NCBI GenBank assembly: GCA_015227615.1
Contig: JAALGZ010000059.1
Location: 62,001-126,000, forward strand
DNA: 64,000 nucleotides
Source: Labyrinthula sp. Ha
Lineage: Eukaryota > Sar > Bigyra > Labyrinthulida > Labyrinthulaceae
Direction of reading: 5' to 3'
The translations under genes were made by a program, and so were the position numbers. Shown piece by piece: positions 16,830-64,000 of this stretch; within the stretch, counting starts at the first letter, position 1, and every line of letters begins with the position of its first letter. The notes beneath the pieces were generated by a model. The model worked only from the letters and a program-made list of their open reading frames with translations, was not told the DNA's origin and did no database searches.

Positions 16830-19800
16830 CCGTGTCCGCAAAATGTAAACGGGGATTAGGTAAAAAAAGGTAAAACCATTAAAAAAAACCTAATTTGTGT
16901 CGTAAGTTAGATTAAAGTATGTTTCCATTGAAATTTTGAAGTTGCAGCTTCCCAAAATTTATTAAATGTTTTAAATTCCAAAGGTTTAGTCAGAGCATCT
17001 GAAAAATTGAACTGTCTTGAGATGTAGGCAACAGTCAGGTTAGAATTTTTGAGATGAGATTTAATGAATGCTACCTGTACTGCTGCAAACTTGTACCTTA
17101 GTGTTAAAGGTCTTTGTAATGTCTTTACAGTTGATGCTGAATCAGTAAGAATGCCGAGCTTTGCGTTTGAATTTGTCATTTCAGTAACTAAGCCTTGAAT
17201 GTAAAGTAGATGTTTTGTTGCTCTGTAGACTTCGTAAAGCTCTGCATTAGGAGCAGAAGTAGCAATGATTGCCTGGTTTGAAGCATGTGCAGAAACTAAA
17301 GTGCTGTCAAGGTAGAGGTACCTACCTGAAGTTGATCTTCTAGAAATTGCGTTAGTTGCAAAAGACGCATCAACTACAGCAACAATTTGATGAAATTTAG
17401 TAATTGTTTCCATTCTGAAGGTTCTTTTGAAAGATTGATTCTGTTGTAAGTAGCCTAGTAGGCTTTGAAGTGCAATCCAGTGTTTAACTGATGGTTCAGT
17501 AGATCCAGTTGCAATCTTACTTAGAGCTAACAAAATGTCCAACCTGGTGTGTCTCAAAAAGCCTAAGCTACCCAAACACTCTCGAAAAGGCACTTTGTCT
17601 TTAAGTTTTTCCACTGGTTGTGTGTCAAAATCAGATTGAATCGGAATGTTAGAGATTTTGATGAAAGTTTGAAATTTGTTTAAAGTCTTGCGCAAGTAGC
17701 TTTCTTGTTGAAGGTAGTAGTTTCCAAGCTCATCTCTCTCAATCACGCAACCAAGGAAGTCAACTGTTTGGTTGATTTCAGTAGTTTTTAACTTGAAATG
17801 TTTCTTGAGTGCTTGAGTGCAATGTTGAATTCTAGCGAGAGTACCCAGTAAAAGTAAATCGTCAACGTAAGAAAGAATGTAGATGTCTTTTCCAAAGAAA
17901 ACACACTCATCGTACTGTGATTGGTTAAGTTTGAGTGATGTTTTCATGATGTTTGAAAAATGATTCCACCAAATTAGTGGTGCCTCACGTAACCCGTAGA
18001 GGTTTCTTTTAATTAGTAAGACGTGATCTTTTCTAAGTGAGAAGTCAGGATGTCCTTCAGGAATTTCTGCAAAAAGTTTAACATCTTTTGGTAGAGGTGC
18101 GTAGAGAAAAGCAGCTTCTACATCTGCTGTTCTGAAAGAAAATTGCTGTTGAGCAGCTAGTGTTAGAGCTGTTGTAAGGCTGTCTAGGTGTAGAGTAGGA
18201 GAAGAGTAGTCTGCTTGAAGTTTGTACTTTTGATGACGTCCGTTGAAGACAAGTCGCGCTTTTGCTAGACCACTTCTTTTTCTTGTCAAAACAAAGATTA
18301 ATTTTCCAACTTCGTCGTTTGTGTTAATTTCTGAGCGTTTTACGATGCTAAGAACATTTCTAGCATGCATGTGCTGAAGCTCCTTCTGAATTGCCTTGTC
18401 GTACTCTTCTTTTTGCGGATGGTTGGCGAGGTCTTTGTACATTCTCGGGTGTTGCTTAAGTTTTGAGTCTAAAATCATTTCTTTTAGTTTTTCCTTTTGT
18501 CTGGGAGTTCGATTTTTAATCTTGTGTTTCTTTGACTCTGAAGTTTCGTAAACAAAGTAGTTTAAGGAATTTTCAAATCGTTTTGGAAGTTTAAGTGTTC
18601 TTCCTGTTCGAGAGTGTGATTGTTTGAAGATCGGGTGCTGTTGCGTACCTTCAGTGTCTAAGTTGCTAGATTCAACAGGTGCAGTTGGGGGTGTTTCTTC
18701 ATCATCTTCTGGAGGATTGGTTTCCTCTGATGTAGTACTAGACTTGCTAGTTTCAAAGTTTAGAGATTGAATTGGTTCTGTGGTTGATTCATCATCAGTG
18801 CCACTACTCTCTGTAGAGTCAGTTTCGTAGAGATTCATTGAATGTTTTGAAATTTTAATCAACGGTAACTTTTCTGCTCTTGAAATTGAATCATGAAATT
18901 TAGTTTCTACGAAATGAATGTCTTGTAATTGTGCATGTGAGATTCTTTTTGTTCTTTTGTTTAGTAAGGTACAAGTAAGGAAAGATCCAAGTGGATCGAA
19001 GCCAAGAAAAATCAATGGAATTGAAACATCATTGAACTTGTCTTTTCTTTGCTGAGAAGGAACAATTTTGTGTGCTAAACATCCAAAAACTTTTACATGT
19101 TGGAGCTTTGGTTTGTACCCATGAAAAACTTCAAGAGGGGTTAGGTTTTCCAAGGCGATGTGAGGTAATCTGTTTTTAATGAAGGAAGCGTGGTTGACAG
19201 CAAATTTCCACCAGTCAGTGGAGAGTTTTGCATGTTTAAGTGCAGATCTAGCAAGTGTTCTAAGTGAAACGAATTGAACGTTCTGCTAAACCATTTGTTT
19301 CTCCATGTCTTTCCGGAGTCGCAAGTTTAAAACGGATTTTGTTTTCATGAAGTGTGCTAAGAAATTCTGTAGTTAAGAATCCAGTTTGTCTGTCTAAAAC
19401 AAGGAGATTGCAAGTTGATTTTGCCTGACTAAGTAAATTGTAAAAGCTGTGTTTCAAGTCAGATGATTTGGTTGAGAGTGAAAACGATGTCCAAATCCAT
19501 CGAGTAAATTGATCAGCAACCACCAACATGCATCCTGTGTGGTGCCTGCTTGGTAGCAGCAGGTCCAAATGCCAAACCTGATTTTTCTTCCGTGCATTAG
19601 TCTTAAGGAGCGAATCAGTTTTCAAAGGCATTCGTCTCATCTTAGTTAAGGCACATGTTTCACAGTCCGCGCTAGTAAATTTTTCATTTTCAAAAAGCCC
19701 AAGGTGAGAAAGTTTGTTTGTTGATGCATGCATGAACCTGTAGTGCCAGATCGAGTCTGGTGAATGATCCAGGGTTGTGTAGCAAGGATCCGTGCTGTGT

Positions 19801-21420
19801 TCAATCCAAGCTTTACTGATGCCATTAATGTTCTGAAGCTTGCTGTGCTCTCCATTTGCAAACTTGATCGATCCATGTGAAGGATCGTAGTTGATGTTGC
19901 ATCCCAACTGGTAGAGGAGCTTGTTTGAAAGTAAACATGTTTCTGCATCTTTGATGTAGTAAGCTGGAAGTGTTAGAGATCTTGTAGTGTCAGAAAATTT
20001 GATCTGAACTGTTCCAACACCAGTGATCATTACTTTGTTTTTCAAAACTTGAATCGTGTTTTCGTTTTTGTAAAGGTTTAGATGAGTAAAGAAGCACGGG
20101 TCGTTAAAAACATTGCAACTAGAACCAGTGTCAATGACACACGAGACCAAATTCTGTCCTCCTGTTTGTGAGTTCTTGACATTTTCTTCAGCCAGGTAAG
20201 ATTGGGAGGTAGATTTGTTTGTAAGGAAAGTGACGAATGTTTCAGGAGCTACAAGTGGTTTGTCTTCTGTGATGTAAGTTGCTGCATTCGAGGACTGAGT
20301 TTGTTTGCCTGTGTTGTTGAATGTTTTCGGTGTTCTGTTTTTCCTGTTTTTAAGACTCTGTAGAAACCTTCTTTCACTGGCAAATCTGGTACACACGCTT
20401 TCCAAATGGTTTCTTCTTCCACATGAGCATGTGTTTCCTTTTGCTTTGCAGCTCCTGTAATGATTGTTGAATCCGCTGGAAAAGTTTTCACCGCACAAGA
20501 CGCAGGTGTTTTGTGGAAGTCTAAAGTTGTTTGAGCTCTTCTGATTGTTAGTTTGGTAGTTTGTGAAGTTTACTGTAAGAGTTTCGTCATGTGGTAAAAT
20601 GCCTCTGGGATCGTGTGCGTAGACCTTAGAAGAGATTTGAGACTGAACGGTGTTAAGTTTTTCAGTGCTTGTTAAATCTAAATTTGTAAGTGTAGAAAGT
20701 AGAATGTTGTTGCTAGTTCGATTTTCCTTGATCTTTGAAACGTAAATCATTGCCTGGTCAAGCGTCTTCGTAAACATTCCATGTTGTGTACAGAAGGTTA
20801 GAGCTTTGTCGAATTTTTGATTGAAATCCATTAGACTTTCTTCGTTTTTCCATTTTAAGTTCATGAAAGTTGAAAAGATTGCAGAAAGTTGCGTGTCACG
20901 TGAGAGGTAAAAGCTGTGACCTAGAGTTCGAATGATTTTGTTCAGTCTGTAAGGGTAGGTGAGACTTGTAAGGTAGTCAATTTGTTCGGGAAAGAATGTG
21001 ATCAAATGATCAGAAATGAATTCGTCCGCATCTTCGGAAAGGACAAAGTAGTCTGTTTTCGTAGCATTTGAAAAGTCAGGAAGTTGCTCTGGGTTGATTG
21101 AGTCCACCAGTAAGTCCAAGTGTTTTCTTCCCTTTTCTCTGCAGACTTTGTTCAGTTGGACAGCTTCACCAGCTTTTTCTGTGTTTTCCACTACTGTTCC
21201 ATCACTTGAGTAAGTAGACTCTACGCAGGTATGATTCAGCTGCTTAATGTAGAGCTCAATGAACCTCTTGAGTGTGATGAAGTTTTCTTGCGTTCTCAAA
21301 TCCAAAACCTTATTTTTGAGTGCCTCAGAGAGAATTAACTTCGCAGCTTTCGTAGTTTGAGGGAGAATAGTATTGTCCTTAAATCTAACAGTGTAGAGGA
21401 CCATTTGCCAGTCGCAACCA

Positions 21421-21558
21421 AGTGAATATCTAGTATAAATGTGTAAAATGTAAGTATTTAAAAGTATTTCTTGTATTATGTATTGTGTCTTAGTAGTTAA
21501 TTGATAATTACCCAAAATATATATCCAATTGTAACTTGTAAATCTGTAAATGCTAACT
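21421..21558 (-). repeat. 5' LTR of the young copia element
   Basis: This is the identical partner of 16692-16829 and is followed by the second TATAT copy at 21559-21563. Being upstream of the coding region on the minus strand, it should hold the element's promoter. Confidence 0.95.
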
Positions 21559-47673: not shown

Positions 47674-49791
47674 TTAATAGAAGCTGTCCAAAAAATCACT
47701 ACTGACATTAAACATATTTTCATTTCCCAATACATCTATTCCAAAAATATCTTTCTCATTGAACATATATGAGGCACATAAAAGTTCTATGGATCTTTTT
47801 TCAGGTTTTACTTCTTTTCTCTCTACATTTATAGCAACAAATATTTTGTTCCTAGTATTTAATAAATTTCCATAACTTATTGCTTGTTTTATAGCGTCTT
47901 TCATGTGTCCATCGTCAGTAGTTGGTACTGATACACATTTTACTTCTATTATTATACCTACATCACCCTTGGCAAGTTTTATATCAGCTCTACCTTTTTT
48001 ACCTGAATCTAGTTTACTAGTATAAATTTCACTGCCAAATGTGGAATGTTGCGTTTGCAATGCTATATAATTTAATAATGAATGTACTACATCTTCATTA
48101 GCAAACACACCCTCATTATTGTGATCATCAACTAGTTTAACTCCTTTGATCATTTCTTTAAATTGGTTATAGAAGTTTTTGAAGAGTACTCTAATATTAT
48201 TTTGATTATACTCTTTTGTATCAATTATACTCTGCAAGATGTCAATTAAGGTCTCAAGTTTTTTAGAATCTATGCTGTAAATGTCTTGATAGTAGTCTAT
48301 TATTTTTTTTCTCATTTCATACTTAATTTCCATATTAGGTAACTCATAGCAATCTTTCTTTTTGCCATCTATTGTTAAATATCCACCTATAAATAGGTAA
48401 GAAAATAATAAGTTTAAGCCAACTGAATTGATTTCTTTATTACCACCGATTATATTCTTAAGAATTTCAAAGTCAGATACCGAAAAGTCATCTTTTCTTT
48501 CTAAGTAAATGCTCTCACCATTTACCAGCCTTTCCATTTGTTCTCTAACCTCTGGGTTGCCAAATAAGACATCGATAAAATTTATACTTCCGCTTTTTTC
48601 CCAATAAGACTTAAACTCAGTAAACTCACCTTCTCTTAAATAACTAACGATTGACCAGATATTATATTTACCAACTATTTCCTTTAAATGCACTTCTTTA
48701 TTTTGTGGACAATATCTCTTAACTTTATATCCATTGTACCAAAGTTTAGCCTTGTCCCCAAGTTCTTTAGGTACTTCAAAATGCTCAAAGAATAAATCAA
48801 CGTCAGTTTGATCAAGGCCATAATGTTGCGCATATTTAGCACTAGTAAAATTAATTTTACCAAGATCGTTTAGTCCAGATAGCATACCGCTTTGCGAGAT
48901 ATACTGAACTCCTGTTAGTACTCCCTTTTCTAAGTAAGAATTACTCTTTAGAGCAGTCTCATAGATACCTGAAAACAACTTGATTGTTTTGTCAAGATTA
49001 TCTTTATCAAACTCCCTATATGCGATATTAGCTACAGCATCATATTCATCTATCAATATCCAAACTTTCTTATCGTAATGACAAAAGAGCATTTCACTTA
49101 AAACTTTTAAACCCCTTGTTATTTGCACATCTTCATTTTCCTCTATATATTTCCTTATTAATTTACGCTGTTTTGGTTTGAGTTTAGTACTATTTTGGAG
49201 ATATGAATGTTGGCTAAAGATTTCACTCAAATCTGTTCTAATCAATCCTTTGATGGAATTATAGTCTCCAGCTTTACAGTTTTTGAAATCAGCATGTATG
49301 ACTGGATACGTTCCTTGTATAGTTAAGGAATCAGTTACCCCAAATAGTTTTGTTTTCGCTATATTTAAAGGAAAGATTTCTCTTTTTCCACGAATACCAG
49401 CATCAATTTGACCACCGGCAAACAGCTTATAATTATCACTCTCTTTTTCACTTATTGGCTCACCCTTACTGTCAACTTGTATTTCTAGAAATCTCTTCAG
49501 CATATCAAGATTTATAGTTTTTCCCCAACGTCGTGGCATTGATATTAATAATGTTTTACAGTAATCCTCTATAATATCTTTTATAAACAGACTTTTGTCA
49601 GCAAATATTGTACTTTGCACTACTAAATCCTTAAAATCACCACCCAGCAAGAAGTGAGGTTGAAATTTTGGTCCCCTTTCAGTTCCAGAAACTTTATCAG
49701 TATATTCCTTTAACAAGCGAGACGAAGCTTGCCCAGTGCCCCGAACTATTCTCTTTTTCGGAATTTGGTAAGCTTTAAATGCTTTTTTCAT
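47674..49791 (-). CDS. AAA-ATPase-like / PD-(D/E)XK nuclease protein of bacterial type
   Basis: This is an uninterrupted 705-residue frame from ATG to TAA. Residues 42-340 match the AAA-ATPase_like family (Pfam PF09820, formerly DUF1703): FADKSLFI, a Walker A variant MPRRWGKT (85-92) and Walker B VWILIDEYD (243-251). LTGVQYISQSGMLSGLND follows near 292-309, and WYNGY at 351-355. The C-terminal 130 residues match PDDEXK_9 (PF08011): GRADIKL (600-606), IIIEVKC (613-619, Glu616 and Lys618) and AIKQAISYG (633-641). The likely chemistry is ATP-dependent DNA binding or cleavage; the true role is unknown. These proteins abound in intracellular bacteria such as Rickettsiales and Bacteroidetes symbionts, so transfer is the simplest origin (inference). 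The frame is intact while both flanks are decayed. Its start lies 55 bp from the 3' LTR of the gypsy element. Confidence 0.9.
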   Translation of the reverse strand: MKKAFKAYQIPKKRIVRGTGQASSRLLKEYTDKVSGTERGPKFQPHFLLGGDFKDLVVQSTIFADKSLFIKDIIEDYCKTLLISMPRRWGKTINLDMLKRFLEIQVDSKGEPISEKESDNYKLFAGGQIDAGIRGKREIFPLNIAKTKLFGVTDSLTIQGTYPVIHADFKNCKAGDYNSIKGLIRTDLSEIFSQHSYLQNSTKLKPKQRKLIRKYIEENEDVQITRGLKVLSEMLFCHYDKKVWILIDEYDAVANIAYREFDKDNLDKTIKLFSGIYETALKSNSYLEKGVLTGVQYISQSGMLSGLNDLGKINFTSAKYAQHYGLDQTDVDLFFEHFEVPKELGDKAKLWYNGYKVKRYCPQNKEVHLKEIVGKYNIWSIVSYLREGEFTEFKSYWEKSGSINFIDVLFGNPEVREQMERLVNGESIYLERKDDFSVSDFEILKNIIGGNKEINSVGLNLLFSYLFIGGYLTIDGKKKDCYELPNMEIKYEMRKKIIDYYQDIYSIDSKKLETLIDILQSIIDTKEYNQNNIRVLFKNFYNQFKEMIKGVKLVDDHNNEGVFANEDVVHSLLNYIALQTQHSTFGSEIYTSKLDSGKKGRADIKLAKGDVGIIIEVKCVSVPTTDDGHMKDAIKQAISYGNLLNTRNKIFVAINVERKEVKPEKRSIELLCASYMFNEKDIFGIDVLGNENMFNVSSDFLDSFY

Positions 49792-49845
49792 TATTTCCTT
49801 TTTTTGCTTTGTCCCTAATCTTTCTCCAGTATTCGGTTATTATAA

Positions 49846-50122
49846 AAAAAAATCAGCAGTAAATATGATCTCGGCTCCTTCTACTGCGCATAAAACAAGG
49901 GAAACTTGCTTTCAATTCAAATTCAGAATTTATTCACAAGTTCTTTGTTCTTAATTCGTACAACGGTCGCATTTTAAGATTCCTTTTTTTTTGCGTCCCT
50001 ACTTTTACAATATAGCATTACCCCAATGTATTTTTAATTATAAGGTACCCATTGAAATGAGCACTTTGCTAATCCCAGGTCACTATTTCAGTTCAGTTCA
50101 AATATAGAAATTTATCCACAAG
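49846..50122 (-). repeat. 3' LTR of the minus-strand gypsy element
   Basis: About 280 bp, aligning throughout with 56957-57234. Shared strings include CAGTAAATAT, TCGTACAACGGTCGCATTTT and CAATATAGCATTACCCC. Only this part of the LTR is clearly shared. Confidence 0.8.
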
Positions 50123-50269
50123 ATTGCCTCTTAACAAAGTCTCATTTTCATTCTTATCTCAGTCTTCCTTTCTCCCTATCATCTCCAATCTCACCACAAA
50201 CACTTTCCCCAACGTAAAAAACCCACGATATTTCACTTGCACAGCAAATAATCCTAACACCAACTCTCC

Positions 50270-50480
50270 AGTTCCAAGTTAAACAAATTTCATTTTTCAA
50301 ATTCCAAGTTTAACATAAATCCTCAAACTCCATATTCAAACACAAATCCTTAAGTTCCAAACTTCAACACAATTTTTCAAAGTTCCAAGTTCAATACAAA
50401 TTTTCAAGGAGCAAATTCAATACAAATTTTGAAGGTCCAAGTTCAATATAAACTCTCAAGCTCCAAGTTCAAAATTCCAA
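50270..50480. repeat. degenerate tandem repeats of about 30 bp
   Basis: The motif TTCCAAGTTCAATACAAATTTTC and variants are repeated about six to seven times, just inside the 3' LTR of the gypsy element. It looks like a minisatellite in the element's untranslated region. Confidence 0.75.
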
Positions 50481-50542
50481 ATCAAATCAAATCAACTTTC
50501 AATTCTATCTCAATTTATCACATCATGCTTATTTCAAGTACA

Positions 50543-51370
50543 TTATAATTCATCTCCTACTGACATCCATCCTTTCCGCAAAATGTTTTTCCTGCACAAC
50601 AGAACTAAATATTGTACCTTGGCATTGAAACACCCCTCAATCAGCTCATATATTTCTTTAGGCTTTCTAAAAGTCCATGTACTAGGAGCCATTAAAATTT
50701 CTTTACCAAAGTTACCTTTCTCCAAATTCACGGGTAACTCACCTTTTTCACATATGAACAACTCTTTTATACCCTGCAATGCCATATTTGCTAACGTATA
50801 ACGCACTTTCCCATTACGCTTAGTCTTCGTCCATAGCACATGATTTATATATTTCAACCGCCATTTCTCCAAACATTGGAATATGATGTCTCTCTTGCCC
50901 CAAAATGTCCAAATAAAAATCAACGTGTTCCTTGCTGCCCTATAAAAATTCAACTCTAAGAATTTTCTATCTTCCACTTGATTGACGTTATCCGCCGGAC
51001 ACCTTATAGAATTCCCTTTACAAAACTAATGTGGGGGATCTAGCATAATTACATCAAAAGCTGCCCCTTTGTAATCATTCAATAATTCAAACATATCCCT
51101 CTTAATGCTCACCGAATCTGCAGATATTGTGCACCTATAAACTCTTACCCTTCTTGTTTCCAAAATGATTGCATTATTACAAACCCCACCTCCAATTTTT
51201 ATTCCAGGTACTCGACATGTCATATTTTCCATTACTATCTGTCCCATCCTTATCAATTCGTATATTCTATGAAGTTTCTCCATATCCTCCGTTATCAAGC
51301 TGCTCTGTTTCATCTGATCGAGAACTCGCGTTCTCAACATCTCTAGCTCCACAATAGAATCACTAATCAA
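50543..51370 (-). mobile_element. MT-A70 (METTL3/14/4)-like adenine methyltransferase region inside the gypsy element
   Basis: This region is on the same strand as the element's pol and lies downstream of integrase. Readable blocks follow the MT-A70 order: FDVIMLDPP (catalytic DPP motif area), NTLIFIWTF, LEKWRLKYINHVLWTKTKRN (family LxxWGFkyvxxxxWxKt), LFICEKGELPVNLEKGNFGK, RKPKEIYELIEGC and RKGWMSVGDEL. The family transfers methyl from S-adenosyl-methionine to N6 of adenine in RNA or DNA. The region is broken like the rest of the element and is treated as a fossil. It could be a cargo gene of this gypsy lineage or a host gene that was captured or inserted there. Confidence 0.75.
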
Positions 51371-54300
51371 TTAAGGGTATATTCTACACTTCTCTTTCTT
51401 TTTTTAACACTTTCGCCATCATCCTTAATCTCGCTTTCATATGATCCAAATTGTTCCAATCATGAACTACTACTGGCACATTCAAATTTATTTTGCTACT
51501 CAAACTCTCATGCATACCAAAAAATTTTCATGGCGTTCACCACTTTTGCAAATCCAATTCCACAGTATTGCTAATTCTCCTTTCTATTCTATATTCCTCT
51601 CCCAACCATTTATTGTTTTTCTTTCCAACAACACCCAAATTCAACCGAATATAAGTATAGTCACCAATAGCTTGCATGTTTATCCATGATTGAAGCTTAT
51701 TATATGTCTGTTGGTGATTGTGCTGAGGCATATACTTTAAAATCATTTTGTAATTAGCAAATCTAAAGTGCATCACCAAATTTTTCAGCAATAGCGCCTG
51801 ATATATATTCCAACCAACTTCTACCAGCTTGCCATCCAAGTCATACTCGACTCGTGAAAAGTTCATTTTCTATACCTCAAACGCAACATATTTACTTTTT
51901 ACCTTGCCCATCCATTAGGATATGCCACTTTCAAATATCTCTTAGCTTCATTCGTCTTCTAAATCTTTTCTTTTGCCAAATACTTTATCACCAGCTTAGG
52001 TAGATCTTCAATCATGATGCTAAGCAGTTGCCATGTCCAATCCGTCTCATTTCTAAAACCTCTCGAATCCACTTGCAACAAAAAACCTCTTGTTTCTTCT
52101 TTTATACCACGGATCCTTTGCACTTCCAATTTTCCGCTATCATTTGAAAACGGTACCTTCGTTCTAGGATTTTGAAGGAGCTCACTTGGAGCAAAAAAAA
52201 AAGATAAGACAAGGAGGATGTACCTCCATAGTTTGACCCATAATTTTTGCATCTTTGTAAAGATGCTCATTCAGCTGCCTTTTTACAATATATAGTCCAA
52301 CCCACTGAGGCCTCAACTTTTTGTGTTTGACTGCCTTGCTTACCAATACAAACTCTCCACTGAAACATAACGGTGTAAACTTAAATCGCTTATTATATAA
52401 TGCGTTTTGATACTCTATAGCTCGCTGCAAAAACTCAATACCTTCTCTAGATACTTGAGAATATTCTTCTGAATCCTCTTCATCGGCTCCTCTAACGTTT
52501 CTTCTTAGTTTTTCTTCAAATCCAAAACTCCCGTTCTTCCCAACACATCTTTCCGAGGTATTTTCCTAAGAATATTTGAAACGATGATAAATTCTCTCTA
52601 GACCTCATGGACACAGAGTTTAAATAATATTGCACCTTATCCAGTAGCATAAGCCAATTCTCTGTGGTCAGCGACAAATCCGATATAAACATCCGAAAAT
52701 GTTTTAAGGTTTGCCTGTTCTACACTTCAGCTGCACTATTGGAAAACGTCGCGTAGGAACATGAAAACTACTGTGATCCTCCACTTTTCTTGACAAATTC
52801 AGTAACCACCCGGTTTAAAAAATGTTACCTCTTATCTGAATTCAAAACAAAATCACCAGCTGGTTCGTAGTGAGAATGAAGAATTCACAAAGGTGTAACT
52901 ACCTTGCTCGTCTTGGCCTTCTTACATCTATTCAGCATCGTTAACATCGACAATGAGTCAATAATCGTCAAAAATATATTCCTCTCTCCTACTAAGATAC
53001 AAAAAATCACTCAATATATAATCTCTACAACTTCTTTCTAAGCTCGTTATATCGAACGGTCTTGTCATTATCTTTGTAGGCCACTGGCCATGAACACATT
53101 GTCTTCTAAATCTAATCCATCCATCCATGAGAAGACCAGCCAATTTCTTGTCTAAAGGTACATGCTCCTTCTAAATTGCTCTTTTTTCAAGCTCAGCAGC
53201 TCCAGTGTTAAAACACAAATGCGTATGCATCAATATCGAGGGTATCAGCGACGGGGTTCCCACCAGTTTCCTTCACGCTTCTGCAACCCTATTATTATCC
53301 CACCCAAGTCCCTTATTTGTAGCCCTAACAGATAGCCTTCATCCATCTCAGGCTAAATTTCCGCGCAATTCGGACTTTGACAACTCAAATGTATCTTATC
53401 TATCTCTCTCAAAAAATTATCTATACATTTGACATCTTCCATCGACATCTCTAAAGCATACATATTAAGCAACTCTTATTTGTCTCTTGTACTTTCCGGA
53501 TATATCAGTCTATTTAACGCGTCAGCCGCCACATTATAATCTTCATCAGTGTGATGGGCCTCCAGCTGTAAATCCTGGAAAATTACGCTCCAGTGACACA
53601 ACCTCTCCGATTAAGCCTTTTTCTTATATAGGTTAGGATTCAATACATGCACCAGGACTCGGCAATCTGTAAACAAAGTTTTCTTTACCGAGTTTCTTTT
53701 TAGATAGTAATCATACTTCCGAGATGTTGCAATCACTGGGAACAACTCCTTTGAGTAAATGTGCCAATACAGCGTTGAGCCCCAAAAGTTAACACTAGAT
53801 ATTAATATTACTTTAAACTGCTTTTTCAGAACTTGTTTCACATCAATTTCTTCCTTCATTTGACATGTAAAGTAAGCCCAATGTTTCTTTGACGCGTCCA
53901 CAAATAAAATGACATCCAACTTCGCATCAAAATATGCCAATGTTGCCGTGAACAACTCTTTCAGCTTCTCTACCGACACCCTTTACGCCGTATTGATCTC
54001 TTTTGTCCAAATGATGAGTTTTTTTCTTTCTCTCCAGTACCTTTATCTTCTCCACTATTAAATAATTTTCTGTAAGCGTAAACCTCAACCACGCAAAATG
54101 TGGCAAAATTTCTGTGATTAAGTTCCCAATAAAAATAAACTGTGTTACTTCATGCACATATTTTGGTTTTCTTCTCCCCAAAAGGTCAGCCACATACTTC
54201 TTATCCAATCTGTGACCTTTATCCGTTAGTAAATTTCCGCAAAAAGTAGTTTTCTTCTTTAGAAAATCACATTTAGATATATTTAATCTTAATCGCCTCC

Positions 54301-56956
54301 ACATTACTTACTTCAGAAACTTCTCTGTAACCGCACAAAATTTATTAATCATTGCTCTCCATAAAATATTATCATTCTTTTATTGTAGAGTATTTTTGCA
54401 AAGCAGTTTCTCCGGTTCTAACATTTCTCTTATTATTCTTTTCGAAAACAAAGAAGATGTATTACATCATCCCGGAACCCCCTCTCCCCCTAAAACTATA
54501 GCACAAAATCCACGGCGTTCAGCAAGTGAAAAAAAAAGTTGAAAGTCCTCCTGCGTTGGTAAGTAGTCGAAGTCACTAAACAACTCATGCTGACCAAAAT
54601 ATATAGTCTCTTTAATTTTAGACAACTGGTTGTTAATATCTAGAAGCCTAGAGTCTACTTTCCTGGTGTAATGATTTAACGACCGGAAATCTACAACAAA
54701 ACAGTACTTCTTTGGTTCTAACTTGGACACAATTAAAGGCTGTATGGATATCGTCAGGTTCCGATTTGGCTTAATAATCCCGGCTTTCAGTATTTACTTC
54801 ATTCTGTTTCTAAGAAATTCTTCCTTCTCCGGTCCCATCGGTCTCGCTGTACATACAACCATTTCGTTCTCATTATTCACACTGCATTTAATATGTTTCA
54901 ACCTTAATATCAGAGTTGGGTTCCTGTCATCTCCAAATCCACGCGCGTTAATCATAATTATCCCTTTCAGTCAATCCAAATCCCCCACCGGAACTATATT
55001 TTTTTATATCTACTAGTTTCTCACTAATTACCTTTTTAGCCTCAAAACATCTTCCTCAATGGAAGTCTCCAAGTTTTACCCATTGTTCAACTCATCCTCC
55101 ATCACTTTATCTTCAAATGCTTTGAATATTATAGGCATTTTCCTTTCGCTGATGATTCCTACTCACTTTACATTCATTTCCCTAACCTTTATCCCCTTCT
55201 TCTTTTTTCCCCGGATTTTTTTCTCAGACCAATTTATCATAACCTTACTACCCACTTTTATTTCCACTGATCTTGCAATCATTACCTCACTCCTTTAAAA
55301 GTTGAAGTAGACTTAACCCATGTCTTCCCAACAAATCATTTCCTATGAGTAAATTTGCTCATTCTTCTAGTTCATTCAGTAATAGAACTTCCACCTCTCC
55401 AAAATCATACACCCTTTTCCCTTCAAAACGTATCTTTATCCTCACTATACCTGAATGTGTCACCCGATGCTTGACTCCATTTGCATCTTTGACTCTAATG
55501 GGTTCTCTCAGCCTCCTCAAACGACTGCAGTATTTTTCAAACCTGCTCCTCGCTGCGGCAGACATATCGGTATCAGAGTTCAAGCATCCACATACCACAA
55601 ACTGCTGAACACCCTTCCGCACTACAACATCATAAGTATTCTCCTTTTTTCCACATATCTCCCCTGATGCTATATCCACATTTAACAACGTCATATCTTG
55701 TTTATATCCTCGCATGACTTTCTTCCCTGCCATTGTTAATTTTCCATTTTCATTTGTCTGAACATTTTCAAAGGCAAGCTTCATTGTTTCTGGCTCCTCT
55801 ATTTCTTGCATCTCATTATCCACATCCGTTTTTTCATTCTCCACCTGCTGCATCTTCCGCCCTACACCCAGATATTTCCTCTGCGATTTTAATTTCAACT
55901 TCTCCTTATATCTTTTTAAACGCTTTGAAATTACATTTTCCGGCGGTCTAAAGAGTAATCTGGGATTTTGTTACCTTCCAGCAACAAAGTCTCTCTTCGC
56001 GTAGCAAGTATCTTCTTTGTGTTCATATCTATGGCAAAGTGAACACGAGTTTTGGTTTCCACTACCTCCATCTGCCCCACAATTATTAACATATTTAATA
56101 CTAAAACAGCTTACATCTTCTTACATTCCTTTTATCTAAACTCTTTTTCAGTTCTTTCTTAATAAATCTGCTCCCACTTATCCTGTTTCTTATCTATTTT
56201 TCATGCGGATTTCTCTTCCGCATCTTCTCCCTTACATGATATGGTGGTATGTAGCTTATTATATACTTCTCCAATTTTTTTAAAGTCTAAATTGCATAGT
56301 GAGAGTTTGATCGTCAACATATCTTGTCGTACCCAAATATAACCGGGTAACAGCCTAAATATAGATGAGCATATTTTCTTTTTCAAACGTGCACTTTCTT
56401 CCGGTAACAACTCAATGACTTCTCTAATTTTATTAAAAACTTATTTGAATGTGTTTTCTTTTAAAACTCCCAAGTTGAATACAACATTATCCAATATAAT
56501 CTGGTCAGGAGCTTTTAGCTCCTTCATTTTCTCTTCTTCCACTATATCCTGCAGATGCTTAATAAGCACATTGTTATACCTAGTCACATTGAATCTCTTC
56601 AAGTTTGTAGACAGCGTCATTTCTATCTTCAGGTTTTGGATTCACCTTCTTTCGCTGTACCGCATTCAAAAGTTTGTACTGAGAAATAAAAAACTTGCAA
56701 CTCTGCTTTGAAAAATCAGTTAATTTATCAATTTCTAAGTCCATACAACACTCTTCATCTCAACGGTTATTGCGACTTACATCCCTCAATACATTATCAA
56801 AATGTGTGGGCAAGGTATTAATCTGGTTTGGGTTAAGTGTAATAGTTCGTCCATTATCAGATCCAGTTCCAGTTCCTATATTATCGTTTGTAGTCGTGTT
56901 CTCATTGTTTCCCGATATTATTGTAATCCTGGGGAATATTGATCAATATTTAGTTA

Positions 56957-57234
56957 GTATAACAAATCCAGCAGTAAATATAATCTCGGTGCCTTCTACT
57001 GGGTATTAAATAATGGAAACTTTCTTTCAGTTCAAGTTCACACTTTATTCACAAGTTGTTAGTTCTTAATTCGTACAACGGTCGCATTTTAAGATTCTTT
57101 TTTTACATCCCTACTTTTACAATATAGCATTACCCCCAATATATTTTTAATTATAAGATACCCATATAAATTACCACTATGCTAATCATGATTCACTATT
57201 TTAGTTCAGTTCAAATATACCAATTTATCCACAA
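56957..57234 (-). repeat. 5' LTR of the minus-strand gypsy element
   Basis: This is the partner of 49846-50122. It directly abuts another LTR-type sequence (57255-57575), so the real LTR may be longer or two LTRs may be joined. Confidence 0.8.
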
Positions 57235-57254
57235 GAACAGGAGTGTTTGTAAAG

Positions 57255-57575
57255 TGAACATAAAGCAGAATTGAGTACGAGAGAATTAAGTAGAAAATAA
57301 ACAGTTCGAATAGAATTGAGTCCAAAGTAAAAATAGAAAGATAAAGTATAAGAATAGAAAATTAAGTTTAGTGAAATTAATTGTCGTAATATAAAAGTCT
57401 TCGTATGTAAAAATGCTCGTCCAGATATGAGTAGTACTGTAGTTTGAAAGAATCCGCCTTTTACAGCGATGTAAGTTACATCTTGTATTTGATTGGCAGA
57501 ATTTTAGTGAGAGTAGTCAATTATGGTGTTGTTCAAATTAAGACATTAATGATATTTTAATTTTGGGCACGAAGC
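57255..57575 (-). repeat. LTR-type sequence related to the 60.2 kb element, opposite orientation
   Basis: The reverse complement of this stretch aligns with 60232-60545, sharing CAATCAAAT, TTTTTACATACGAA, CTTATACTTTATCTTTCTAT and GAACTGTTTATTTTCTACTTAATT. It is either the U3 part of the minus-strand element or a separate LTR of the plus-strand family. Confidence 0.75.
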
Positions 57576-60231: not shown

Positions 60232-60545
60232 CAAATTTGAAATCCTGAAATCACAAATGTCATTAATACCTTAATTTCAAAAATGAAATAATTGGCCATT
60301 CTCACAAAAATTCAACCAATCAAATGCCACGTGTAAATTACACGCGTGTAAAAAACGGATTCCCATATATGGAAAAACCTTTTTACATACGAATACTTTT
60401 ATATTACAACATTTAATTTCACTCAATTAAATTATCTATTCTTATACTTTATCTTTCTATCTTTGCTTTAGACTCAATTCTATTTGAACTGTTTATTTTC
60501 TACTTAATTATCTAGTACTCAATTCTGCTTTATATTCATCTTAGA
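60232..60545 (+). repeat. LTR-type sequence of the plus-strand gypsy element
   Basis: This is the inverted counterpart of 57255-57575. The right-hand copy, which would prove it is an LTR, is outside the window. A CCACGTGTAAATTACACGCGTG inverted motif lies at about 60.33-60.35 kb. Confidence 0.65.
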
Positions 60546-63500
60546 AACTGTTACGGTTTGATACCTTTTTTATGAATATCTCTTATTTATATTTCGTTAT
60601 TTACATTTACACCGCGCCACGTCATTGGTTTACATAAGTAGTTAGAGAATACACACTTTTAAGTTATTAAGGGTAACACAAAGAAGAACAAGTTTTTATA
60701 TTTTACGTTTACCTCTACACGACTGCTACTCGGCCGAGTCTAGAGAAGAGTATATTTACTGGACGGAAAACTCTCAATATTGCAATATTTGTTTTTGTAG
60801 AAACGAAGTTGTGCGAGGTATTTGTCTTTTGTCAAAGAACTGATCTTGGTGTTCACTAGCTATGGCTTCCTTGTTTGGATCTCCTAGTAATAAGGGAGAT
60901 AATAGTGAGAGGAGGAACTTAAATAATGCCCAGATAACTCGCTTAATCAAAGAGGTGTCTGAACAGCAGGCTAATCAGATGGCGGGTGTATTGAAAACAC
61001 TAGTTACGTCTTTTAAAGACTTTAGTTTAGTAAAACTGGATGAGCTAAATAGTTTGAATGTTGGAGATATAGAAGATTTTCTATTTCAATATGAAAGGCT
61101 TACTGAAGAACAGAAGAACCTTATTTCTGTAGCTCAGAAGTTATCTAGAAAATTATCTCAATACTTGAAGTTTTTAGGAAAGACCGATACAGATCAAGAC
61201 ATCATTAAGTATTTAAAAGAAAAAGTTCAACAAGAGAAGACAAAAGATTTAAAATCTACTGAAGATTTAATTAAAAAAATATATTTATTTTAATGAAGAT
61301 ATTCTTGAAGAAGAAGCAATTGTCATTATGTTTAAAGAGGTGGATGAGTTATTGGAAATTATGCCACCAGGGGCTAAAATGAAGCCCAGACTTATTGCTA
61401 AAGATATCTTCGAGAAACTTCCTGACTATGGGTGGGTAAGAAAGGAAGACCTGAGGCTTAAACCAGAGTTGAAGCAGAAGAATATAGATACTTTAATGGA
61501 TTATGTTCTCGATAGCCTACCACCTCTCCATGTTAGATCTAGGTTCAAATCAACGAATAAGACGAAAACTAAGAAGCTAAAACCTAAGGTTAAAGTTGAA
61601 GCCGTAGATAATATGGGTCAAGATATGCCAGCTGAGTTATTAATTGCCAGCTTATGCAGCCATCGTTACGAATATGGCCATAAGGAAGCTAAATGTTTTG
61701 CGAAAAGAAATGGGAATCCGAAGTCTGTTATCCCAACTGAGCCAGAGCTGAGGCAAAAGTGGGAAAATATAAGAAGAGAAGAAGGGAAAAAGGTCGGCGA
61801 AGAAATTTGCTGCCAAAGTTGGGGGTCAATCGGATGGTAACATCTCCAAACCTAAAAGCCAACAAGATATTAATGGCAAAGAAAATATCGCTGAATCTGT
61901 GCCTTCTGGGCAGCTGTTGGAACCAGCGACAGATATCGAGTTTTTACTGGTCAAAAAGCTGTTAGAAGAACTCTTTTCAACCCTAAGAAACTAAATATGA
62001 TAAAAAGTACAACAGTACTCAAGCCTAACTTGATCCCTGCTGGTCATATTTATGATTATAGTGAATTAGATGAGGATGCAGAAGTTGAAGTGTATTTTGA
62101 AGAAGGTGGAGAAAAATACACAGCACTATTATATAGTGGAGCTTTTAAAAGTGCTATGAACCTGCGTCTCGGAAAATATTGTTCAAATACAATCACTCTT
62201 AATAACGCATTTGCTATAAAAGTTGCTGGTGGAAGGATTTATTAGGTATTTGAACTTGGTATTTTAGCCAAGGTTATTGTTCGTTTAGATGGTGGCTTCT
62301 ACACTTTCACGAACGTTGAATGCATGCTCATGGATGTACCCCAATGGGATGATTCGATCATAGGTAATGATCAATTAAGAACTCATGGGTTGGATCCCTT
62401 AACGTCTCTGAGGCAGAAACTTAATAATAAGAAGAAAAAGTTTAACGAAGTTCAGAGCGGAAATGCTATTGAATATTGGGCCAGCTGGCTTGAGGAAACT
62501 CTGAATTTAGAAGAAAAAACTATTCAAGTTGAAGATGCTTCAGTAGAACCGAGAGGTGTATTTTATATTGATCAGGATGATGTTTTCTACGATGCTTTGT
62601 CTGATAATTTTTATTATGAAAAAGATATTTTCTATGACTCTTTAAATAAAAAAGAAACTCAATTTGCATCTATCAATGAACTTATTTTGCCGAAAGAATT
62701 GATGAAGAAAGATCCAGTGATTTTTGCTGAGCAAGATGATGAGGTTAATTTCGAAATAATAGATGAAGGGGCAAACCTAGACATAAGTTCAGAAGAAGAT
62801 ATAAGACGTTTAACTAATATTTTAGAGGATAAAGTTGGGAGCTTAAATTTAAAGTATTTTGACAATGATTTAAGTAGGAAAAACGAACTTCTAGATTTAT
62901 TAAAAAACAATGTGAGAGCATTTGGGGATTCAGAGTCACCTACTTCTCTCTCCAATTTAACTCCTATTGAGTGTGAACTCAAAGAAGGGAGAAGTGTTGG
63001 GGTCTTGAACCAACACCCCTTAGGATATGAGCAGGAGAGTTTTTTATTGAAGAGGATCCAACAAATGTTGGATGCTGGGATTATCGAGGTTAATCCAAAT
63101 CCTACAACGGCCATGAGTACTTTAGTAGTACCTAAAAAAGGCCCTAAAAAGTTTAGAATGGTTGTAGATTTCAGGCCTCTCAACGATGCTACAAAAAAAG
63201 TTACTAATACCTTACCTAAATTAGAACTACAATTACACAGAGCCCAAGACATGAACTATTTTTCATCTTTTGATTTACTTTCTGGTTTTGACTATTTACG
63301 TTGTGACAAAGCTGCTGGGAGTCTGTTTACTTTTGTAACTTCATGGGGAGTTGCATACAGCTTTAAGGGTGCACCACAGGGTTGGTGCAACACCCCGGCT
63401 CTTTTTAGTATGAGGCAAATTCATCAGGTACTAACTCCTGTTGGATTGTGGCCTAAAAATAGTATGAAGTGGATAGGTGACACTGTTCTTATGTCTCCAA

Positions 63501-64000
63501 CGTTTGAAGGTTTATTAAAAATACTGGAAAAATATTTAAAGCAGATACAAGCTCGTAACTTGAGGATTAACATCCAGAAATGTAGTTTTATTGATAATAA
63601 GGCGACCTTTTGTGAAAGAGTTTTGAATGGCAAAGGATATAATTATGATATTACTTATGCTACGAAGCTCTTAGAAAGAGTTAAGCCTCAATATATGCAC
63701 GAGCTTGCGCAATTTGTGTATAGGGCTAATTTTTTATGTGGAATTATACCTGAGTTTTCTAGGATAAGAAAATTAGTACTTGGTGATTTCAAATTAGGTG
63801 GTAAGTTAAAGAACCTTGAAAGAAAGCGTTTATTAATAGAGTGGACTTCAAAAATAGAAGTAGCTTTCATTGAACTTAAAGAAGCTTTGAATAAAACTCT
63901 AGTTAGCTCTTTGGGTTATTATAACCATAATGAAAACATCCATATTTTCGCTGATGCAAGCGATAAATATTGGAGTTTATATTTATGTCAAACTCCTGAC
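60232..64000 (+). mobile_element. Ty3/gypsy element on the plus strand, leaving the window
   Basis: An LTR-type sequence (60232-60545 or longer) is followed by gag (about 60.86-61.84 kb) with a Cys/His knuckle (CSHRYEYGHKEAKC), a protease-like part (about 62.0-62.3 kb) and reverse transcriptase (about 63.0-63.6 kb: FRMVVDFRPLN, FKGAPQGW). RNase H begins near 63.9 kb (IHIFADASDKYWSLYL) at the window edge. Gag and pol resemble the minus-strand element at 49.8-57.2 kb, so the two belong to one family. This copy is better kept, with about three breaks in the part seen. Its integrase, any methyltransferase region and its 3' LTR would lie beyond 64000. Confidence 0.88.

Follow-up and report, generated by a model that had tools for sequence, protein, structure and literature searches.

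The window analysed here, a 64,000-nucleotide stretch of Labyrinthula sp. Ha DNA (C109:62001–126000; the genome searched comprises 50.8 Mb in 153 contigs), carries on its minus strand a decayed Ty3/gypsy element extending from LTR to LTR over positions 49827–57236, as delineated by LTR-like direct repeats and by tblastn with a relative, L025. Repeat comparison places the matched part of the 5′ LTR at 56944–57236 and that of the 3′ LTR at 49827–50123, the two remains being 85% identical over 298 columns. Between them, minus-strand matches to L025 mark gag-like N-terminal pieces in two frames (56285–56747, L025 residues 60–213), the region before the reverse transcriptase (55296–56045, residues 283–519), a frameshifted reverse transcriptase with RNase H (53305–55135, residues 626–1237), a frameshifted integrase (52561–53314, residues 1235–1485) and remains of the integrase C-terminus and chromodomain (51911–52442, residues 1526–1701, the L025 chromodomain being residues 1631–1677). 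A much decayed p1-like Myb domain lies on the same strand at 51615–51815, within the frame 51540–51869; it scored 83.5 bits against an iterated profile of which the window row is itself a member, and is 25% identical to Tetrahymena p1.

The final coding part of this element, located between the integrase and chromodomain remains (53314–51911) and the LTR-like repeat at 49827–50123, is an MT-A70 domain with one internal stop (50552–51058, minus strand). The initial annotation had read four MT-A70 peptide blocks here, FDVIMLDPP and RKGWMSVG among them, on the coding strand between integrase and 3′ LTR; all four are present in the minus-strand translation of 50543–51370, and the placement agrees with our map. 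The check it had proposed, a search with Pfam PF05063, was significant, with a match at 50546–51025 on the minus strand (E = 3.3e-15; score 56.9 bits, family cut-off 23.9), while a Pfam scan of the upstream piece 51029–51370 taken alone gave no match; a profile of 20 element domains from sister copies spans the whole MT-A70 domain of the window copy at 107 bits. The stop follows directly after DPPH, SIRC stands where PTRG is expected, and the pol pieces are scattered over several frames; the window copy is dead. Elsewhere in the window, two long frames at 16907–21557 on the minus strand resemble a Ty1/copia polyprotein by eye.

A sister element lies on the plus strand, with its 5′ LTR at 60549–60779 and its gag-pol running from 61033 to the window end at 64000; its remainder, including the p1-like and MT-A70 domains, lies in L029. 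Extended past the window in this way, as had been suggested, the element ends in an MT-A70 domain (L029:2825–3328, 159 bits with the element-domain profile) in which DLPF replaces DPPW at motif IV, followed by a 3′ LTR (L029:3364–3594) that is 96% identical to the 5′ LTR across 231 nt. A gene matching AAA-ATPase_like adjoins the 3′ LTR of both the window element (47677–49836, minus strand) and the sister (L029:3608–4000), and another such gene (L010:5–613) is found some 0.9 kb away from the 3′ LTR of L010. The flanks preceding the two 5′ LTRs in the window (57245–57557 and 60255–60548) are also alike, in inverted orientation, although the two elements themselves differ; the similar flanks and the AAA-ATPase_like neighbour perhaps reflect a shared target site.

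Searching the genome with the Pfam MT-A70 family yielded 354 candidates, and every one of the best 150, which were scored, lay above the family cut-off. The open frames holding these 150 matches reach at least 1000 aa in 53 cases and at least 2000 aa in 19. Eight further matches from a second search, with the host AMT1 gene removed, bring the count to at least 157 MT-A70 places beside that gene; the context of most was not examined singly, and some of them may belong to further MT-A70 genes of the host. Among the best 150 of 549 integrase candidates, 38 had an MT-A70 match from the best-150-of-354 list 1.5–4 kb downstream on the same strand, against 1 in the control, which counted matches upstream or on the other strand. 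We also inspected four integrase matches chosen for having no listed MT-A70 partner and found the domain in three; the fourth, L030, which is Copia-like by eye, had no MT-A70 within the 3.5 kb fetched. The arrangement that the initial annotation had singled out, MT-A70 after integrase in an LTR-bearing gypsy element, thus recurs in many copies of the genome, and the survey of other family members that it called for found the domain in place.

Of the 53 loci with frames of at least 1000 aa we fetched 20, selected by frame length rather than at random. Eighteen of the 20 have their coding region enclosed by an LTR pair, with the MT-A70 domain before the 3′ LTR; L014 begins at a contig end, and L028 yielded no LTR pair. 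The matched 3′ LTR begins 26–80 nt past the MT-A70 domain in 15 of the 18 paired loci and 370–600 nt past it in L016, L019 and L021, where the matched LTR part is clipped by the stretch ends. LTR identity is 87–100% over 83 to 700 nt, and at least 97% in 14 of the 18. Upstream of many 3′ LTRs lies a purine-rich tract, and of 15 flanks inspected visually, 8 show a 4-bp target duplication. When 11 polyproteins were scanned with Pfam, all gave matches to RVT_1, RNase H, rve and MT-A70, with reverse transcriptase, RNase H and integrase in that order; rve exceeded the Pfam cut-off in four. A chromodomain was matched in 10 of the 11 (over the cut-off in six; none in L019), and no cytosine DNMT family was matched in any of the 11. 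By domain order, LTRs, purine tract and short target duplications, these elements are Ty3/gypsy LTR retrotransposons, and by the chromodomain match most of those scanned can be counted among the chromodomain-bearing gypsies.

Two further features of the elements were observed. A perfect palindrome of 12–18 bp straddles or abuts the 5′ LTR end, at the expected tRNA primer site, in all 15 elements with a mapped 5′ LTR end (L009–L013, L015, L017, L018, L020 and L022–L027), and the window has such palindromes at its 5′ LTR ends (56935–56950 and 60776–60789). Its letters vary between families, and a length of 12 bp is attained by 0.4% of random windows; non-tRNA (self-)priming or an RNA dimer site are possible explanations. 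Retropepsin-like matches, weak and mostly under the Pfam cut-off, fall after the p1-like domain but ahead of MT-A70 in some families (L009, L010, L011 and L019) and before the reverse transcriptase in L020, so that the protease may have shifted place within the polyprotein.

The MT-A70 domain of these elements is accompanied by a p1-like DNA-binding domain, which the initial annotation had missed. For the stretch between chromodomain and MT-A70 in L020, the best PDB match was p1 of the MTA1 complex (E = 1.4e-7). A profile built from 17 such stretches matched p1 at 73.5 bits over all 68 positions, the next Myb protein reaching 42.9 bits over 48; the remaining Myb proteins align to the initial part of the profile only, at most 48–49 positions, and AMTP2 matches 60 positions at 21 bits. 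An iterated profile seeded with L009 recovered the domain in all 20 polyproteins, in the sister and window elements and in L031–L033. Judged on these matches, the partner is a Myb/homeobox-like domain with the p1 extension. In a recent survey, p1 and p2 are described as co-occurring exclusively with AMT1 (PMC12695648).

The methyltransferase itself appears to be of the same affiliation. A profile of 17 element tails scored 246 bits against Tetrahymena MTA1, covering profile positions 16–314 of 320, whereas METTL3 reached 165, METTL14 96, 7cv6 70 and MTA9 49 bits; 7cv6 bears the database name Methyltransferase-like protein 2, and we take it to be of METTL4 type. In the second of our two trees, both built without AMT2/5, AMT6/7 and METTL4 rows, element and AMT1 rows are united against METTL3 and METTL14 (support 100/96.6). 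The comparison that had been proposed, with METTL3, METTL14 and METTL4, was thereby carried through for the first two, and METTL4 is represented by profile score only. All 28 element rows share with the host AMT1 a P-x-R-G motif after motif IV that METTL3 lacks. An AlphaFold2 model (mean pLDDT 77) had chain 7yi8_B of the MTA1 complex as its top Foldseek match with METTL3 close behind, and the fold search alone did not separate the two. In the structural work on MTA1, D209, S332 and N360 contact the methionine part of SAM and R357 its ribose, and the D209A substitution almost abolishes activity (PMC9852454). The equivalent positions in the 28 element rows are kept in 28 (D209), 27 (R357), 26 (N360) and 20 (S332) cases, and motif IV reads DPPW in 16, DPAW in 7, DPPY in 3, DPPG in 1 and DLPF in 1. 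Taken together, sequence comparison places the element enzyme nearer to MTA1/AMT1 than to METTL3, METTL14 or METTL4. A METTL3-type capture is disfavoured by the profile, the P-x-R-G motif and the tree. With the MT-A70 domain nearest MTA1 and the Myb-like domain nearest p1, these polyproteins fuse relatives of two subunits of a single complex, and the elements thus carry a fused p1–AMT1-like cassette.

The host encodes stand-alone counterparts of both parts. Its AMT1 gene (C91:220560–221273, in a 327 aa frame) is 49% identical to P0013 and scored 243 bits in a search with that protein, where the highest-scoring element copy reached 156; there are two stand-alone p1 genes (C100:136084–136311 and C1:1284467–1284688). 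In the first tree, the host AMT1 (L008) clusters (99/93) with the sole labyrinthulomycete row recognised, P0093 of Mucochytrium quahogii. Neither the host AMT1 nor the host p1 is a particularly near relative of the element domains, suggesting that the capture is old or that its source lies elsewhere; capture from the AMT1 of the present host is unsupported, as the element rows are not next to L008 in the tree. A host p1 paralogue (L035:1336–2487) additionally has an Agenet match above the cut-off and a Tudor-like match below it, which may point to a link between 6mA and a histone reader in the host.

Several comparisons bear on the history of the cassette. Among nine pairs of copies, seven of them divergent and two close, dN of the MT-A70 domain was near the pol core value, falling below it in three divergent pairs (0.18 vs 0.21, 0.27 vs 0.29 and 0.18 vs 0.26) and above it in four (0.39 vs 0.28, 0.44 vs 0.36, 0.60 vs 0.55 and 0.62 vs 0.45), with synonymous sites saturated or nearly so; the two close pairs, which differ by few changes, gave MT-A70 dN/dS of 0.27 and 0.16. 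Mantel correlations over 20 copies, a set that includes near-copies, were 0.91 for MT-A70 with p1, 0.91 for MT-A70 with pol and 0.87 for p1 with pol, and none of 5000 permutations was as high. The pol, p1 and MT-A70 trees have their main groups in common, though not every branch, as would be expected of a p1–MT-A70 cassette with a long common history with pol. That the element MT-A70 domains arose only once is not proven by the two trees that include AMT1 and METTL rows: one change suffices in the first (71/91), two are needed in the second, and there a constraint keeping the element rows together is not rejected (p-AU 0.20). In the first tree, four rows that we took for bacterial by their appearance were placed within the element side; the second omitted 10 of the 63 rows, namely these four, the window row and five element rows.

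Outside the assembly, a protein search with the L020 tail returned nine proteins, seven EukProt gene models and two from plants, and one EukProt model is 100% identical to L020 and was therefore taken to be from the same species. A profile search (A1, E ≤ 1e-8) returned 12, comprising seven EukProt models, one ENA protein of the host AMT1 type (P0013) and four others. Searching with P0013 gave 672 proteins, and none of the best 120 of these was named as a transposon; a tblastn scan of viral contigs with the L009 MT-A70 domain found no match.

An element-borne relative of a 6mA enzyme together with its DNA-binding partner suggests that the elements may mark chromatin for themselves. Our favoured explanation, which we consider moderately probable, is that a diverse set of Ty3/gypsy elements has a pol ending in a captured, fused p1-like and AMT1/MTA1-like module that marks the element's own DNA, or its insertion site, with 6mA. 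The module forms the C-terminus of the integrase–chromodomain polyprotein and, if left uncleaved, would reach the insertion site with the integrase; joined to it, the module would bind DNA through p1, transfer methyl groups from SAM to adenines of the element cDNA or of the fresh insertion site and, by analogy with AMT1, act at ApT. In species with AMT1, 6mA is reported at ApT sites close to where active genes begin, and AMT1-dependent 6mA accompanies permissive chromatin (PMC12695648). New copies would then gain the same mark as active genes receive from AMT1, helping their continued expression. That the elements write 6mA on themselves is, by this analogy, the simplest reading and a likely one. 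More tentatively, and with somewhat less than even expectation, we propose that the integrase–chromodomain–p1–AMT1 chain methylates each integrating copy, which would start with an active-gene mark and keep it through replication by maintenance-type methylation. Counting against easy activity, and so against the favoured explanation, only two of the four writer subunits are recognised in the elements, MTA9 and p2 not being among them, whereas all four are required for activity of the Tetrahymena writer as described in PMC9852454. The favoured explanation also has against it that motif IV is variable, with the S332 position occupied by serine in only 20 of 28 rows, that a single origin is unproven, that the element domains show no special closeness to the host AMT1 or p1, that loci were selected for long frames and that METTL3 follows closely behind MTA1 in the fold comparison.

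Motif IV departs from DPPW in 12 of 28 rows, which would fit a module that is mainly a targeting device, with p1 and the chromodomain steering the integrase to chosen chromatin and catalysis of minor importance; the p1-like domain in 20 of 20 polyproteins and the chromodomain match in 10 of 11 scanned are equally in keeping with such a role. However, the SAM-contact and catalytic positions, unneeded for targeting alone, are kept (D209 in 28, R357 in 27 and N360 in 26 of 28 rows), and we regard a mainly targeting function as unlikely. Less probable still is that the enzyme methylates element RNA (m6A) as METTL3 does, affecting export, stability or packaging: the MT-A70 fold is common to METTL3, and UniRef automatic names call AMT1-like proteins mRNA m(6)A methyltransferase, but the scores favour MTA1 over METTL3, the P-x-R-G motif is absent from METTL3, and the neighbouring p1 is a DNA-binding subunit. 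The family thus favours DNA over RNA as the predicted substrate. A chance insertion or host gene capture confined to the window copy, for which only the broken state of that copy speaks, is ruled out for practical purposes by recurrence, since the 20 of 20 fetched loci (picked for long frames), the sister element and three of the four partnerless integrase matches all have MT-A70.

These elements allow a direct test of whether 6mA helps to keep a transposon active. The eukaryotic MT-A70 families are described as relatively static in the 2025 survey (PMC12695648); the present genome, in which MT-A70 domains number well above one hundred and many lie in retrotransposons, departs sharply from that pattern. 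We found no report of an AMT1- or MT-A70-bearing retrotransposon in the literature searched, preprints and most subscription papers lying outside it.

Partial precedents exist. The nearest are retrotransposons with cytosine DNMTs, as described in PMC5890265: KnitGypsy-Dnmt3 of Klebsormidium, of Gypsy type, and Symbiodinium DIRS and LINE elements, with Ka/Ks under 0.2. They share with the elements described here a eukaryotic DNA methyltransferase captured into a retrotransposon pol or ORF; however, theirs are cytosine enzymes of unrelated fold, whereas here an AMT1-type adenine enzyme is accompanied by its p1 partner. The same source mentions DIRS retrotransposons with Dam-like N6A methylases, which are likewise retrotransposon-borne adenine methyltransferases, but of Dam type and combined with a tyrosine recombinase rather than MT-A70, integrase and LTRs. 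In the stramenopile Ectocarpus, Sola1-1_Ec32 encodes a ParB–methyltransferase protein (PMC12477816) and so also joins a DNA-binding domain to a methyltransferase on a transposon; unlike our elements, it is a DNA transposon, and the domains of its accessory gene are reported to be characteristic of prokaryotes. Retrotransposon capture of cytosine methyltransferases and of Dam-like enzymes was thus known before (PMC5890265); in the elements described here, the capture involves an AMT1-type enzyme and its DNA-binding partner. The closest biochemical counterpart is the Tetrahymena MTA1 complex, composed of MTA1, MTA9, p1 and p2 (PMC9852454), to whose MTA1 the element MT-A70 and to whose p1 the Myb-like domain is closest. 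There, the subunits are separate host proteins, whereas here p1- and MTA1-like parts are recognised in one transposon polyprotein, and such fused p1–AMT1 proteins might be simpler 6mA writers for study than the four-part ciliate complex.
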